Of a stretch of 32,729 bases of DNA, positions 11,452 through 15,621 are shown in pieces. The DNA is from Bacteroidales bacterium (GTDB taxonomy: Bacteria > Bacteroidota > Bacteroidia > Bacteroidales > UBA12077). The first letter of the stretch is position 1. Every line of letters starts with the position of its first letter. The notes under the pieces are model-generated. The model was not told the origin of the DNA. It saw only the letters and a list, made by a program, of their open reading frames with translations, and did no database searches. The stretch spans positions 1 through 32,729 of the forward strand of contig JAUWQL010000026.1 of NCBI GenBank assembly GCA_030611105.1, read 5' to 3'. A program made the translations under genes and the position numbers.

Positions 11452-11510
11452 GAATAAAGGTTTAAAAAAGAAAAATAAAATTTTGATATTTTTCAATTAA
11501 TTCCTTAAAA

Positions 11511-11538
11511 TTAACTCCGCCCTAAAGGACGGAGTTAA
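11511..11538 (-). terminator. Terminator of the DsrC/desulfurase operon
   Basis: A 9-bp perfect stem (TTAACTCCG / CGGAGTTAA), with an inner CCT/AGG, lies 60 bases after the desulfurase stop at 11598. On the minus strand TTTTAAGG follows. Confidence 0.8.
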
Positions 11539-11597
11539 TCAAACAAATATTAAAGTCGTAAAGTAGAATTAAATAAAAGTAAGAAGTGTTGTACTGT

Positions 11598-12758
11598 TCA
11601 CCCTCTAATGGATGCGATATCCTTTACTGCTTCGATTGCTTTATCAATATGTTCCTGAATAGTAAACGCACCAATACTAAACCGTACAGCTCCATGTATA
11701 TCAAATGTTCCAATTACCTCATGTACAAGAGGAGCACAATGCAAGCCTGTACGGCATGCAATATTATAATCGACATCCAGCATGGTTCCTACATCCCCTG
11801 CTTCAAATCCTTTGACATTGAAACATAATACAGGATTTTGATTTTCTCTGCTTGTTGCACAATATGTTGTTACATTTTCAATATTTTGCATACCGGCACG
11901 GAGTTTTTCCCAAAGATCCATTTCTTTGTTATGGATGTTTTCAATTCCTTGTTCATTAACCCATTTCACTCCGGCATGTAAGCCAGCTACACCAACTAAA
12001 TTCATTGTTCCGCATTCCAAACGATAAGGAAATTCTTCGAGATGAGTTTTTACTGCTGATCTTACTCCGGTTCCTCCAAATCGTGTTCCTTTAATAGGAA
12101 TACCTTCCATAACATATGAGCCTCCAATTCCTGTAGGTCCCATTAAACATTTGTGTCCGGTAAACACTAAGGCATCAATTCCCATGGCTTTCATATCAAC
12201 AGCTACCGCACCGGCACTTTGGCTTGTGTCGGCTATGAAATATACTCCTTTATCTTTACATATTTTACCTATTTCTGCCAATGGCTGTATTGTTCCAATA
12301 ACATTAGAACAATGATTTACAACCACCATCTTTGTATTTGACTTAATTGCATTTTTTATATCATCTGGATTAACATATCCATCCTGGTTAAAAGTAACAT
12401 ATGTTAATTCAATAGTGCCATCTTGCTCAAGGTGATATAACGGACGTAAAACTGAATTATGCTCAAGTTTTGTTGTTATAACGTGATCTCCCTTTTCTGC
12501 CATACCTTGCAACAGCATGTTAAGCGAATCACTTGCATTATAACTAAATGTCAGGCGTTCCGGATCATCTCCGTTAAAAAGCTCGGTTAGCATTTTTCTG
12601 GTGGCACTAACCATTTCTTCTGTTTCAATGGCAGCATCAAAACCAGATCGCCCGGGACTTACTCCATGAGTTCGATAAAAAGTATCCATAAATTTATATA
12701 CTTCTTCGGGTTTAGGAAAAGTAGTCGCCGAGTTGTCTAAATAAATTAAATCGTTCAT
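11598..12758 (-). CDS. Cysteine desulfurase family protein (class V aminotransferase)
   Basis: This 386-residue PLP enzyme starts with the NifS-family opening IYLDNSATTFPKP. It has EHNS (H100) for PLP stacking, D177 in FIADTSQSAG, the PLP lysine K203 in TGHKCLMGPTGIGG, and the catalytic cysteine C341 in the loop CRTGLHCAP. It should convert cysteine to alanine, holding the sulfur as a persulfide for transfer. The TGHKxLxGPxG form fits the cysteine desulfurase subfamily common in anaerobes and Bacteroidota rather than IscS. It is the fourth intact gene of the dsrC operon, after a 155-base structured spacer. This suggests it supplies sulfur to, or acts on, the DsrC carrier. That link is inference from gene order. 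Confidence 0.88.
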   Translation of the reverse strand: MNDLIYLDNSATTFPKPEEVYKFMDTFYRTHGVSPGRSGFDAAIETEEMVSATRKMLTELFNGDDPERLTFSYNASDSLNMLLQGMAEKGDHVITTKLEHNSVLRPLYHLEQDGTIELTYVTFNQDGYVNPDDIKNAIKSNTKMVVVNHCSNVIGTIQPLAEIGKICKDKGVYFIADTSQSAGAVAVDMKAMGIDALVFTGHKCLMGPTGIGGSYVMEGIPIKGTRFGGTGVRSAVKTHLEEFPYRLECGTMNLVGVAGLHAGVKWVNEQGIENIHNKEMDLWEKLRAGMQNIENVTTYCATSRENQNPVLCFNVKGFEAGDVGTMLDVDYNIACRTGLHCAPLVHEVIGTFDIHGAVRFSIGAFTIQEHIDKAIEAVKDIASIRG

Positions 12759-12830
12759 TTTATTTGTGTTTTAGTATGTTTTGTTTTAGTATCTTATTCC
12801 ATAACCTTAAATCCGCAGCAATTAATTTAA

Positions 12831-12913
12831 AAGCCTGATAGCAAGGGCTTGGTTTAAACCAATAATTTCGCCAACAGGCTTAATATCAATAAACCAAACC
12901 CTCGCCTGCGAAA
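12831..12913 (-). other. Structured spacer between dsrK-like and desulfurase genes
   Basis: In the minus-strand RNA, 12905-12891 pairs with 12855-12841 over 15 bp including two G-U pairs. In addition, 12913-12908 (TTTCGC) pairs with 12871-12866 (GCGAAA), and 12881-12875 (AAGCCTG) pairs with 12837-12831 (CAGGCTT). The second and third stems each have one arm inside the loop of the first, so they form pseudoknots or alternatives. A GGTTTAAACC palindrome (12851-12860) lies in the middle. No known riboswitch is recognised. It could be a cis-regulatory RNA, a processing site or a repeat remnant. Confidence 0.45.
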
Positions 12914-14209
12914 TCAAGGCATGACAATTGCATCTGCAACAATCTCTGCAATTGTTTTTATTTGTACATTCAGTTTAAAAGCAGCATTAATTTGTATTAA
13001 CTGATCAGCACAGTTATGACAAGGAGTAACAACTATTTCTGCACCTGTTTTTCGAATTTGTTCAGCTTTTAATTCTGCAATCTTCATACGACGGTCGTTA
13101 TATTCGCTCATAGCTAATTGACCACCTCCTCCGCCACAACATAAATTATCGGCTTTGGTAGGACTCATTTCGATAAAATTCTTAACAGATTTTTCTAAAA
13201 TATATCGTTGTTCATCAATAACACCGCCACTTCGAGCAAGATTACAAGGGTCGTGAAGAGTTACTTTTTGTTGTATTTTTTCAGGATCAACAATGATTTT
13301 GCCTTCTCTAATATACTTCCCAATAAATTCAACTGATGTTGTAACATCAAATGGATATTCTTTTTGTATATAATTTGGTCCTTCCCAACGAAACGCTCTT
13401 GATCCATGTCCACACTCAGCCAACACACATGTTTTTGCATTTAGATTAAATATTTCGTCATACAATCGTTGTGATATAATAGCTGCTTCCTCATTATTTC
13501 CTGAATAGTATGCATAGTTTGTTACATCATACATTTTTGTAGATAATGTCCAGCTCTCTTTTGCCACATGAAAAATTTTTGCCATAGCAGAGATTGACAG
13601 TGGAAAGAATTTTGGTTCTCTGGGATTTAGAGTATATAAGATATCTTTGCCTTTCTCATTTAAATAAATTTTAGCATTGTCATCATTTACTTCAAATCTA
13701 AGATCATCTTCGAGCCATGTTAATGTATCTACAAAATCCTGATCACTGATTCCCATGTTATTACCTGTTTCAATAGCTGCATTCACAGTCGCTTGTAAAG
13801 ATTCCGGAACATAGCCCATATTGGAAAGCATTTTTCTCCCCGTACTCACCAAATAACTAATATCAACACCAATCGAACAATGAGAAACGCAGCGACCACA
13901 CATGGCACATGCTCCAAATAGTAGATCTATCATTTCTTCTACGGTCTCATTATTTAACTCTCTGGCTCCAACAAGTTTAGGAGCTATTTTACCGATAAAT
14001 GTTTTATATCGCCTGTATATTGATGCAACTAAATCTACTTTTTTAGCCGGTATATATTTTTCATTATGATCTGTAAGATAATATATGCAACTTTCTGCAC
14101 ATAGTCCACAATGGACACAACTATTAAGATGTGTAAGAAGTTTACTATCCTTAAAGTTTTCAAAAACTTCTAAGCCTTTATCAATTTTTTCTTGTGTCAG
14201 GTTTTCCAT
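12914..14209 (-). CDS. DsrK/HdrD-like iron-sulfur reductase subunit
   Basis: From the ATG at 14209 the protein has 431 residues. It holds two ferredoxin-type [4Fe-4S] motifs, CVHCGLCAESC (C31, C34, C37, C41) and CAMCGRCVSHC (C101, C104, C107, C111). A C-terminal CCG domain follows, with C322, C357-C358-G and C397-x-x-C400, the pattern that binds the noncubane cluster in HdrB/HdrD and DsrK. A degenerate first CCG half is seen at ECGHGSRAFRWEG. Known relatives (HdrD, DsrK, TmcB, HmeD) reduce or oxidise disulfides or trisulfides with electrons from a membrane cytochrome b. The start at 14209 comes one base after the dsrM-like stop, indicating coupling; an ATG at 14248 would add 13 residues and overlap that gene. 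The protein is soluble and probably docks on the cytoplasmic face. Confidence 0.88.
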   Translation of the reverse strand: MENLTQEKIDKGLEVFENFKDSKLLTHLNSCVHCGLCAESCIYYLTDHNEKYIPAKKVDLVASIYRRYKTFIGKIAPKLVGARELNNETVEEMIDLLFGACAMCGRCVSHCSIGVDISYLVSTGRKMLSNMGYVPESLQATVNAAIETGNNMGISDQDFVDTLTWLEDDLRFEVNDDNAKIYLNEKGKDILYTLNPREPKFFPLSISAMAKIFHVAKESWTLSTKMYDVTNYAYYSGNNEEAAIISQRLYDEIFNLNAKTCVLAECGHGSRAFRWEGPNYIQKEYPFDVTTSVEFIGKYIREGKIIVDPEKIQQKVTLHDPCNLARSGGVIDEQRYILEKSVKNFIEMSPTKADNLCCGGGGGQLAMSEYNDRRMKIAELKAEQIRKTGAEIVVTPCHNCADQLIQINAAFKLNVQIKTIAEIVADAIVMP

Positions 14210-14210
14210 A

Positions 14211-14855
14211 TCATATTTTTTTAGGTGGCCAAGCGTTACGCCATCCATAAAAGAAACCTAAATGGTAGCGAGCTGCAAAGAAATAAACCGTATGCTTTAA
14301 CTTTCCAACAGGAAAATACAGTAATAGAATTCCGGTTAATACAAAATAGACCGGACTTAGTTGAATATTCAATATGGTAAGAGCTGTAATAAACTGGAAT
14401 AATGTTACCAATATATTTGAAATAAAATCATCAGGATTGGACAAAGCAAGAAGTTCCTTTTTAATCATTCTTTTAATTAAAATACCTAATCCATTTAATC
14501 CGGTAATAAATAAAAAGGCAGGAATGATCCAATAAAGCAAACCTTCAAAATAGATATTGAATATCATTAAAAAAAATACAGCTATGGACAGGAAAGTTCC
14601 AAGATGATATAAAATACCGGCAGTATAAGTTGGTAAGTGCATAAAAGCGGATTCTTTTTTTGCCGGATTCATAGCTCCGGTAAATGAATACATTATTGCT
14701 TTTTGTGTATTACCAACTTTTTTCGAGAAATCTTTTGGTTTGCCTAATCTTACCAATCTTACAAGATGCGTTGAACAACTTAACAAGCATACTGTTAATC
14801 CAATTAATGCAAACCAAATATACCAAGACGTATCCGCATGTATTAAATTAAACAC
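14211..14855 (-). CDS. DsrM/NarI-like membrane cytochrome b subunit
   Basis: The 214-residue protein has about five transmembrane segments (roughly 12-32, 75-102, 106-128, 145-165 and 168-190). Histidine pairs H73/H84 and H188/H198 stand where NarI-family cytochromes hold heme b, and H30 lies in the first helix. It is shorter than typical DsrM. Such subunits oxidise menaquinol and pass electrons to a DsrK/HdrD-type partner, or the reverse. Its start overlaps the dsrC stop (ATGTTTAA), and its stop is one base from the next start. These spacings imply translational coupling and a stable DsrC-DsrMK unit. Confidence 0.83.
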   Translation of the reverse strand: MFNLIHADTSWYIWFALIGLTVCLLSCSTHLVRLVRLGKPKDFSKKVGNTQKAIMYSFTGAMNPAKKESAFMHLPTYTAGILYHLGTFLSIAVFFLMIFNIYFEGLLYWIIPAFLFITGLNGLGILIKRMIKKELLALSNPDDFISNILVTLFQFITALTILNIQLSPVYFVLTGILLLYFPVGKLKHTVYFFAARYHLGFFYGWRNAWPPKKI

Positions 14856-15165
14856 ATCCGTCGGGTTTTGGAAGACCGGCTACACGACAAGCTCCACGAG
14901 CAGGTCCTAATGGAAAAAGTTCGTATATTTCTCTCAGACGCAAACCTGTTTCCTGACAGATAGTACGAATCATTGGAGCCATTCCTTTTTCTTCGTAATT
15001 TTGCCGGATAATATTCACAATAGCCCAATGCTTTTCATTCATTTCTTCAATTCCATCGGATTTTGCAAATAATTTGGCTACGTCTTCATTCCAAATATCA
15101 GGATTTATCAGAAAGCCATCTCCATCAACTTTAAATTCTTTATTCTCAATTTCAATTGTTGCCAT
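14848..15165 (-). CDS. dsrC: DsrC/TusE family sulfur carrier with both redox cysteines
   Basis: The 105-residue protein is a clear DsrC: KHWAIVNIIRQNYEEKG in the middle, then RTICQETGLRLREIYELFP and the tail GPARGACRVAGLPKPDGCV. Both conserved cysteines are present, C93 and the penultimate C104, exactly ten residues apart (CX10C). TusE proteins keep only the last one. In sulfate reducers and sulfur oxidisers this tail forms an intramolecular trisulfide that DsrMK reduces. Here the next genes encode DsrM-like and DsrK-like proteins, so the reductase is paired with its carrier, but no dsrAB is visible. The gene overlaps dsrM-like by 8 bases and follows a broken small gene by 19 bases. Confidence 0.93.
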   Translation of the reverse strand: MATIEIENKEFKVDGDGFLINPDIWNEDVAKLFAKSDGIEEMNEKHWAIVNIIRQNYEEKGMAPMIRTICQETGLRLREIYELFPLGPARGACRVAGLPKPDGCV

Positions 15166-15184
15166 AATTTAAAAGATTATTTAG

Positions 15185-15399
15185 TTAGTGATTATTATCT
15201 TCTTCATCAAATTTATCAATGATTTGTTCAATAGATAAAGTGGTATCGGGCAATACAAAATCAGGACAAAAACTTAATACATTTTTTGTTACATATCGTT
15301 TACATATACTCCACTTATCTCTCCCAACCCTGCAATACTTACAGAGGTATTGATCAGCTTGTTAATTAACAAACTATCTGAATTAATAAGTTTACACAT
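15185..15399 (-). pseudogene. Small cysteine-rich protein gene with a frameshift, upstream of dsrC
   Basis: An open frame of 58 codons (15361 to the stop at 15185) reads as convincing protein: QADQYLCKYCRVGRDKWSIC followed by KRYVTKNVLSFCPDFVLPDT and an acidic tail ending DKFDEEDNNH. It contains four cysteines (CxxC, C ten residues on, then C twelve further), suggesting a metal or cluster site. The frame has no start codon and is closed upstream by TAA at 15362. In the next frame an ATG at 15399 gives MCKLINSDSLLINKLI. One missing base near GATC (15352-15355) would join them into a protein of about 72 residues. I do not recognise the family. Its place 19 bases before dsrC suggests it belonged to the operon. 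A sequence error is equally possible. Confidence 0.55.
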
Positions 15400-15621
15400 T
15401 GTATAGTTGGGACAAAAAGAATTTTCCACAAATGCGTTTTATCAAATTTTAAATATATTGATTTTATTTTATATAACAAAAGATGAAAAGATCCAATAAT
15501 ATTTATTAAAATTCTGATTCCGTAAAAACAAACCTAACAAGCTGATAATTAAGATGTATTAGATTTATTAGACACCTGATATAGAAAGAATGAAACCCTG
15601 ACTTGCGACTTTTAGGTAAAA
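15400..15621. other. Intergenic region upstream of the dsrC operon
   Basis: With the broken small gene, the stretch 15166-15621 lacks an intact gene. The part from 15400 to 15621 is AT-rich and shows no coding pattern on either strand. It holds a candidate -7 box at 15529-15536 and must contain the end of the flippase transcript, but no clear terminator hairpin is visible. Confidence 0.5.
15529..15536 (-). promoter_or_regulatory. Candidate -7 box of the dsrC operon
   Basis: The minus strand reads TAGGTTTG, a full TAnnTTTG match, 130 bases before the small-gene ATG at 15399. A matching -33 TTG is missing, so this is tentative. Confidence 0.3.

Follow-up and report, generated by a model that had tools for sequence, protein, structure and literature searches.

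A dsrC operon joining a DsrMK-like pair to a cysteine desulfurase in Bacteroidales genomes in which no sulfite-reductase domain was found

Where would a DsrC protein with a complete two-cysteine tail obtain its sulfur, and to what would it pass it, in a genome in which no sulfite reductase is found? The question is raised by an operon on contig JAUWQL010000026.1 of a Bacteroidales bacterium (UBA12077; assembly GCA_030611105.1), of which a stretch of 32,729 nucleotides, hereafter the window, was analysed. A first-pass annotation of the window read the operon as a DsrC relay working without sulfite reductase, and comparison with relatives supports this reading; that the desulfurase loads DsrC and that the membrane pair releases sulfide are steps that we infer from the sequences. 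The operon itself is confirmed, and consists of the following elements.

15165-14848, minus strand: dsrC, 105 residues, with the CX10C tail and a third invariant cysteine, C70 (PF04358/TIGR03342).
14855-14211, minus strand: M, a DsrM/HmcE-like membrane protein with His 30, 73, 84 and 188 (hydropathy and histidine conservation).
14209-12914, minus strand: K, an HdrD/DsrK/TmcB-like protein carrying a CCG motif besides two [4Fe-4S] motifs (profiles and motifs).
12758-11598, minus strand: CSD1, a type II cysteine desulfurase with H100, K203 and C341 (TIGR01977).
~11509-11540, minus strand: a hairpin after CSD1, a likely terminator (folding energy).

The dsrC stop overlaps the start of M, a GTG, by 8 bases, and one base separates the stop of M from the start of K at 14209, both as first annotated; the longest open reading frame of K begins at 14248, and the alignment of its relatives at ~14209. 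The hairpin 3' of CSD1 (-24.4 kcal/mol, z -6.5) agrees with the terminator placed behind the desulfurase, and is unlisted by a simple terminator scan. An Rfam scan of the window returned one tRNA and nothing else.

The window DsrC matches PF04358 with 120.2 bits (cut-off 24.9) and TIGR03342 with 103.1 bits (cut-off 53.5), and it carries the full CX10C tail originally described, formed by C93 and C104. The same tail is found in all 65 operon DsrCs from loci located by K, and C70, C93 and C104 are invariant in 66 of 66 operon DsrCs when the window copy is included. C70, whose codon lies at 14956-14958 on the minus strand, is new; eight solved DsrCs were matched, and the five of these displayed in the alignment have S, S, T, S and T at this position. 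The TusE-like, single-cysteine DsrC paralogues of Bacteroidota also belong to PF04358 but differ at both sites. Among the 14 sequences aligned from 30 loci (L003-L032), two are of the operon type with C at residue 70, and all 12 single-cysteine paralogues have G at this residue and S or T in place of the first tail cysteine.

M has no Pfam match, and its sole NCBIfam match, to HmcE, is weak (20.7 bits, cut-off 275); a search of the PDB gave no relatives at E values up to 10. Hydropathy points to approximately five helices in the window protein, the number first proposed, but the second helix (~81-99) falls under the threshold in the family average. His 30, 73, 84 and 188 are kept in 39, 42, 43 and 43 of 43 sequences, respectively, and the four would fit two bis-histidine hemes. 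DsrM binds two hemes and retains their histidines, according to the available part of PMC10504309. As for K, the window protein contains CX2CX2CX3C twice and CX34CCGX38CX2C, as reported at first; its cysteines are conserved in 71 of 71 sequences, window included, except for C31, which is conserved in 70 with one gap. Its initial description as DsrK-like holds for this motif set, but not for the profile scores, since TmcB (308 bits, cut-off 735) and HmcF (296, cut-off 750) rank above DsrK NF045796 (238, cut-off 400), with all three below cut-off. The same three profiles were matched by all 20 K sequences scanned.

CSD1 scores 440.8 bits against TIGR01977 (cut-off 377), in line with its first assignment as a cysteine desulfurase. 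H100, D177, Q180, K203, C341 and R359 are invariant in 61 of 61 sequences, window included, and K203 and C341 align with the desulfurase chain 5b7s. A pyridoxal-phosphate (PLP) lysine and a catalytic cysteine within R[TS]GxxCA, a motif that we take to mark the type II (SufS-like) desulfurases, are both present. The second-best NCBIfam match, the selenocysteine lyase SclA, scores 326 bits, below its cut-off of 525, and raises the reading of CSD1 as a selenocysteine lyase of selenium metabolism. We regard this as highly improbable: selD is above its cut-off in 27 of 44 module genomes and below it in the other 17, among them that of the window (68.8 vs 125 bits), and a selenium role was rejected on these grounds.

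Whether the desulfurase belongs with dsrC was asked of the relatives of K, which were searched for in genome contigs with a three-sequence alignment; the best 80 of 282 were examined. Their carriers are recorded as Bacteroidota or Ignavibacteria, except for one labelled merely "bacterium"; the Bacteroidota records mostly read Bacteroidales or Bacteroidetes bacterium, and a few name a genus or family. Flanking sequence of no less than 1 kb ahead of K and 1.5 kb behind it is available at 66 of the 80 loci; dsrC and M accompany K in 57 of these, and CSD1 joins them in 51 of the 57. The gap between K and CSD1 is 7-277 bases over 61 loci, with one exception at 2300. CSD1 lies downstream, upstream (L034, L197) or convergent (L177, L179, L185, L189, L191), and the association has therefore survived rearrangement. 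The pairwise distances of K and CSD1 correlate (Spearman 0.67, 51 loci), a value that relatedness by itself would yield and that is not used as proof.

No dsrC was found at nine of the 66 well-flanked loci, eight of which also lack M and CSD1. At least one of the dsrC-lacking loci (L125, genome G681) represents a scattered module and not a lost one: dsrC-M lies at 11 kb and K at 286 kb of the same 323,948-base contig, and CSD1 on another. A lone K was seen at the Bacteroidales loci L114-L116, L118, L121, L123-L125 and L127.

A second search started from M, with a 39-row profile made without use of CSD1. In a sample of the phylum it matched 2 of 395 genomes; in a sample of the order it matched 44 of 393, spread over 28 of the 206 genera. 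Within 4 kb of M, 43 of the 44 M-positive genomes were read, and contained dsrC in 43, K in 40 and CSD1 in 33, the last being 33 of the 38 with enough flank; in the 44th (G652), M, K and CSD1 stand together on a 3.9-kb contig. Independently of position, a CSD1 profile at E <= 1e-150, a threshold set ahead of the search, also matches 44 of the 393 order-sample genomes. CSD1 and M occur together in 42 genomes, M only in two, CSD1 only in two and neither in 347. The Fisher value of this near-perfect co-occurrence, 1e-51, takes no account of relatedness and should not be read as a probability.

All four mismatches stand at or near contig ends. In the two genomes with M only (G613, G778), the contigs bearing M measure 3.2 and 4.1 kb and break off within K. 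As for the two with CSD1 only, in neither of which M or K was found, the contig of G839 ends inside CSD1, and in G540 dsrC precedes CSD1 by ~50 bases, ~400 bases from the contig end.

L209 8539-8865: dsrC of G540.
L209 7326-8486: CSD1 of G540.

Seven genomes (G025, G585, G681, G587, G762, G822, G823) keep CSD1 although it and dsrC-M lie on different contigs. Because both the pair and its absence are found among the listed genomes within each of the families f1, f4, f9 and f13, CSD1 and M appear to have been gained or lost jointly several times. The first-pass annotation had made conservation of the desulfurase beside dsrC a test of its reading, and the 51 of 57 loci and the genome-wide table answer it in favour of that reading. 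That an ordinary desulfurase lies next to dsrC by chance might be supposed from the single window and has nothing else to recommend it; this explanation was discarded on account of the 51 of 57 loci, the three arrangements and the 42/2/2/347 table, and its likelihood is negligible.

The same distribution bears on a role in biosynthetic sulfur delivery, either to tRNA thiolation or to Fe-S assembly, in the manner of TusE and SufS. Membership in the DsrC/TusE family and the SufS-type resemblance of CSD1 speak for such a role, whereas the operon DsrC has CX10C and C70 instead of the single-cysteine tail of the paralogues, and is co-inherited with a four-histidine membrane protein and a CCG protein. 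M was found in those 44 of 393 genomes only, and CSD1 is not alone in its superfamily in the window's genome, a homologue (30% identical) being present on contig C29. Altogether, biosynthetic delivery seems very unlikely.

Sulfite reductase was looked for through its NIR_SIR domain (PF01077), which was detected in 11 of 14 control genomes. It was found neither in the window's genome (assembly 89.7% complete), nor in any of 53 module genomes (50 from named records plus G009, G058 and G025), nor in any of the 44 M-positive order-sample genomes, as against 26 of the 349 M-negative ones. The occurrence with DsrAB that typifies this type of DsrC is thus not seen in these genomes, mostly incomplete metagenome-assembled genomes (MAGs). 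The search for dsrAB that the first-pass annotation had proposed as a refutation accordingly came out in its favour, and an ordinary Dsr set was rejected on the same NIR_SIR result, sat and aprAB having been outside the search.

We therefore weigh a DsrC module independent of sulfite reductase, in which CSD1 would load DsrC and a menaquinol-fed MK pair would release sulfide; on these genomic data, this seems to us an evenly balanced proposition. CSD1 would strip sulfur from cysteine, leaving alanine, and transfer it as a persulfide to DsrC at the penultimate residue, Cys104, whereupon Cys93, perhaps with the extra Cys70, would join in a disulfide or trisulfide. MK would then pass menaquinol electrons through two b-type hemes, the Fe-S clusters and a noncubane cluster, so that DsrC is reduced and H2S released. 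The net reaction would be cysteine + 2 e- + 2 H+ -> alanine + H2S, with cysteine as the electron sink. Somewhat more tentative, and in our view falling a little short of even, is the corresponding physiology, a cysteine respiration in which cysteine would serve anaerobic Bacteroidota as the terminal electron acceptor, its sulfur passing via desulfurase, three-cysteine DsrC and MK to sulfide without any sulfite reductase. The sulfur donor, the direction of the electrons, the hemes, the quinone link, the product, the chemistry and the energy yield are all inferred.

Both halves of such a route have precedents. Type II desulfurases as a rule require a protein sulfur acceptor; DsrC is the obvious candidate here. 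The DsrC of A. vinosum takes up sulfur when incubated with E. coli IscS plus cysteine, or with sulfide, and requires for this only its penultimate cysteine, mutation of which abolishes the uptake (PMC3397948, available part). In sulfate reducers, menaquinol electrons free H2S from the DsrC trisulfide via DsrMKJOP, as described in the accessible portion of PMC13232883. Joining this loading to this release gives cysteine + 2[H] -> alanine + H2S.

The module resembles the DsrC-DsrMK(JOP) system of sulfate and sulfite reducers in having a CX10C DsrC, a histidine-bearing membrane subunit and an HdrD-like K in one operon, and reduction of DsrC by quinol would be expected of it likewise. By contrast, it has a desulfurase in place of sulfite reductase, whose domain was not found, a K below the DsrK cut-off and the extra Cys70 of DsrC; in addition, no JOP-like family recurs among the neighbours, which were not searched with JOP profiles. 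It shares with TmcB/HmcEF of sulfate reducers the top profiles of K (TmcB and HmcF) and the sole match of M (HmcE), but the scores lie far under the cut-offs and the genes here sit with dsrC and a desulfurase. HdrED of methanogens also combines a cytochrome b with a CCG/Fe-S protein acting on a disulfide, whereas the substrate here is presumably the protein DsrC. Similar to the IscS-TusABCDE pathway of E. coli, sulfur of a desulfurase would reach a DsrC-family protein; however, that pathway is biosynthetic and runs via TusA and TusBCD (PMC3397948, available part), whereas the window operon encodes a redox pair and no intermediate carrier.

The available text of PMC3397948 (2012) confines the first tail cysteine of DsrC to organisms with DsrAB, except for Methylococcaceae, Marinobacter and Lawsonia; many Bacteroidales and some Ignavibacteria are a large further exception to this rule. 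Seven bacterial DsrMK assemblies without DsrAB, within a basal clade whose bacteria are named as Deltaproteobacteria and Clostridia, are counted in the accessible part of PMC10504309, in the main text of which a term search found neither "bacteroid" nor "desulfurase". Where dsr genes of Bacteroidota are treated, they are tied to Chlorobia and Kapabacteria with dsrAB (PMC10591310) or to green sulfur bacteria (PMC13293266), as far as the available portions of both go. In the open-access literature, no description of a dsrC-MK-desulfurase operon of Bacteroidota was recognised.

Other genes near the module suggest two further readings. Among the 80 K loci, DsrE2-like genes occur in 14, Crp-like in 13, HdrA-like in 10, TusA and MvhD-like in nine each, HdrC-like in seven and SQR-like (sulfide:quinone reductase) in five, labels that outside the profile-scanned members are a reading of the sequences. 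The HdrA-, MvhD- and HdrC-like genes would suit a general thiol/disulfide hub, in which Flx/Hdr-like donors reduce DsrC, MK passes electrons to menaquinone and CSD1 only supplies or clears the sulfur of DsrC; in D. vulgaris, FlxABCD-HdrABC is a working partner of DsrC according to the available part of PMC10504309. Such a hub is unlikely in our judgement, in that the HdrA-like gene is present in so few loci (Hdr elsewhere in the genomes was not searched) whereas CSD1 is nearly constant, and a hub alone leaves the strict co-occurrence of CSD1 unexplained.

Equally doubtful is a module that handles, by reduction or oxidation, the sulfane sulfur of sulfide, polysulfide or elemental sulfur supplied through SQR, TusA and DsrE2, with CSD1 as an extra feeder. 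The DsrE2-like, TusA and SQR-like neighbours lend it support, as does a second sulfur locus in the window's genome.

Contig C106 (L033 5709-8376): SQR, DsrC and a DsrE2-like gene.

The locus encodes a type III SQR (655 bits, cut-off 525), a DsrE2-type protein (PF13686, 93.6 bits), a single-cysteine DsrC and one protein without a confident family. The statement that no dsrEFH is in view is thus correct as regards the window, whereas the genome as a whole has this DsrE2-type gene, although PF02635 gave no match in it at the genome-search threshold. On the other side, C106 is a separate contig, and the genus (g1) has the single-cysteine DsrC without a CX10C copy: DsrC is a lone match in 17 of 20 genomes, and the ten of these that were read are single-cysteine. 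Furthermore, the DsrAB that would oxidize DsrC-bound sulfur further was not found.

Several points weigh against the preferred reading, in which CSD1 loads DsrC and MK releases sulfide. The evidence is genomic and comes mostly from MAGs, and MK could run the opposite way, from DsrC thiols to quinone. In some relatives the module lies beside genes for TusA, DsrE2, HdrA, MvhD, HdrC and a type III SQR; such neighbours and the type III SQR of the window's genome make other sources of sulfane sulfur possible. K scores below the DsrK, TmcB and HmcF cut-offs, and M below that of HmcE. No CSD1 lies near six of the 57 dsrC-M-K loci (the rest of these six genomes was not searched), and an adjacent K is missing in three M-positive genomes, all of which have K elsewhere. 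The lack of NIR_SIR is not unusual for the order (Fisher p = 0.098), and M-positive genomes therefore do not significantly avoid sulfite reductase.

If the proposed mechanism is true, cysteine breakdown would be linked to the quinone pool by a membrane-coupled route to sulfide. This route would be relevant in lakes, the rumen, digesters and groundwater, the habitats suggested by the records of relatives, and surveys that use dsrAB as marker would overlook it.

Two more genes of the window flank the operon.

15185-15429, minus strand: gene for a small cysteine-rich protein, split between two frames (15429-15355 and 15361-15185; profile of relatives).
11410-9953, minus strand: CSD2, a second class-V PLP enzyme of 485 residues with a GGCAC motif (profiles).

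The small protein before dsrC is, like C70, new here. It has ~80 residues with five cysteines that are invariant in the family alignment, and its gene precedes dsrC in 27 of the 80 K-found loci; among the 43 M-found loci, 24 have it within 4 kb of M. The window copy was recovered at 82 bits by a profile of the relatives, and its frame split reflects either a sequencing error or decay. No Pfam or NCBIfam match was found in the four members scanned, and the PDB gave chance-level relatives only (best E 0.1). Viral contigs scanned with K held no relative, leaving viral carriage of the module unsupported.

CSD2, in which the two cysteines of GGCAC are invariant in 16 of 16 sequences, adjoins the module in 15 of the 80 K-found loci, 14 times before dsrC and once after CSD1, as in the window. 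A larger cluster was seen at L056, L057, L059, L073, L079, L083 and L103, in the order CSD2-dsrC-M-K-CSD1-DsrE2-TusA-MvhD-HdrA-HdrA-HdrC; in several of these it is accompanied by a NifX-like gene and a divergent Crp-like gene, and it resembles a fuller sulfur/electron island.

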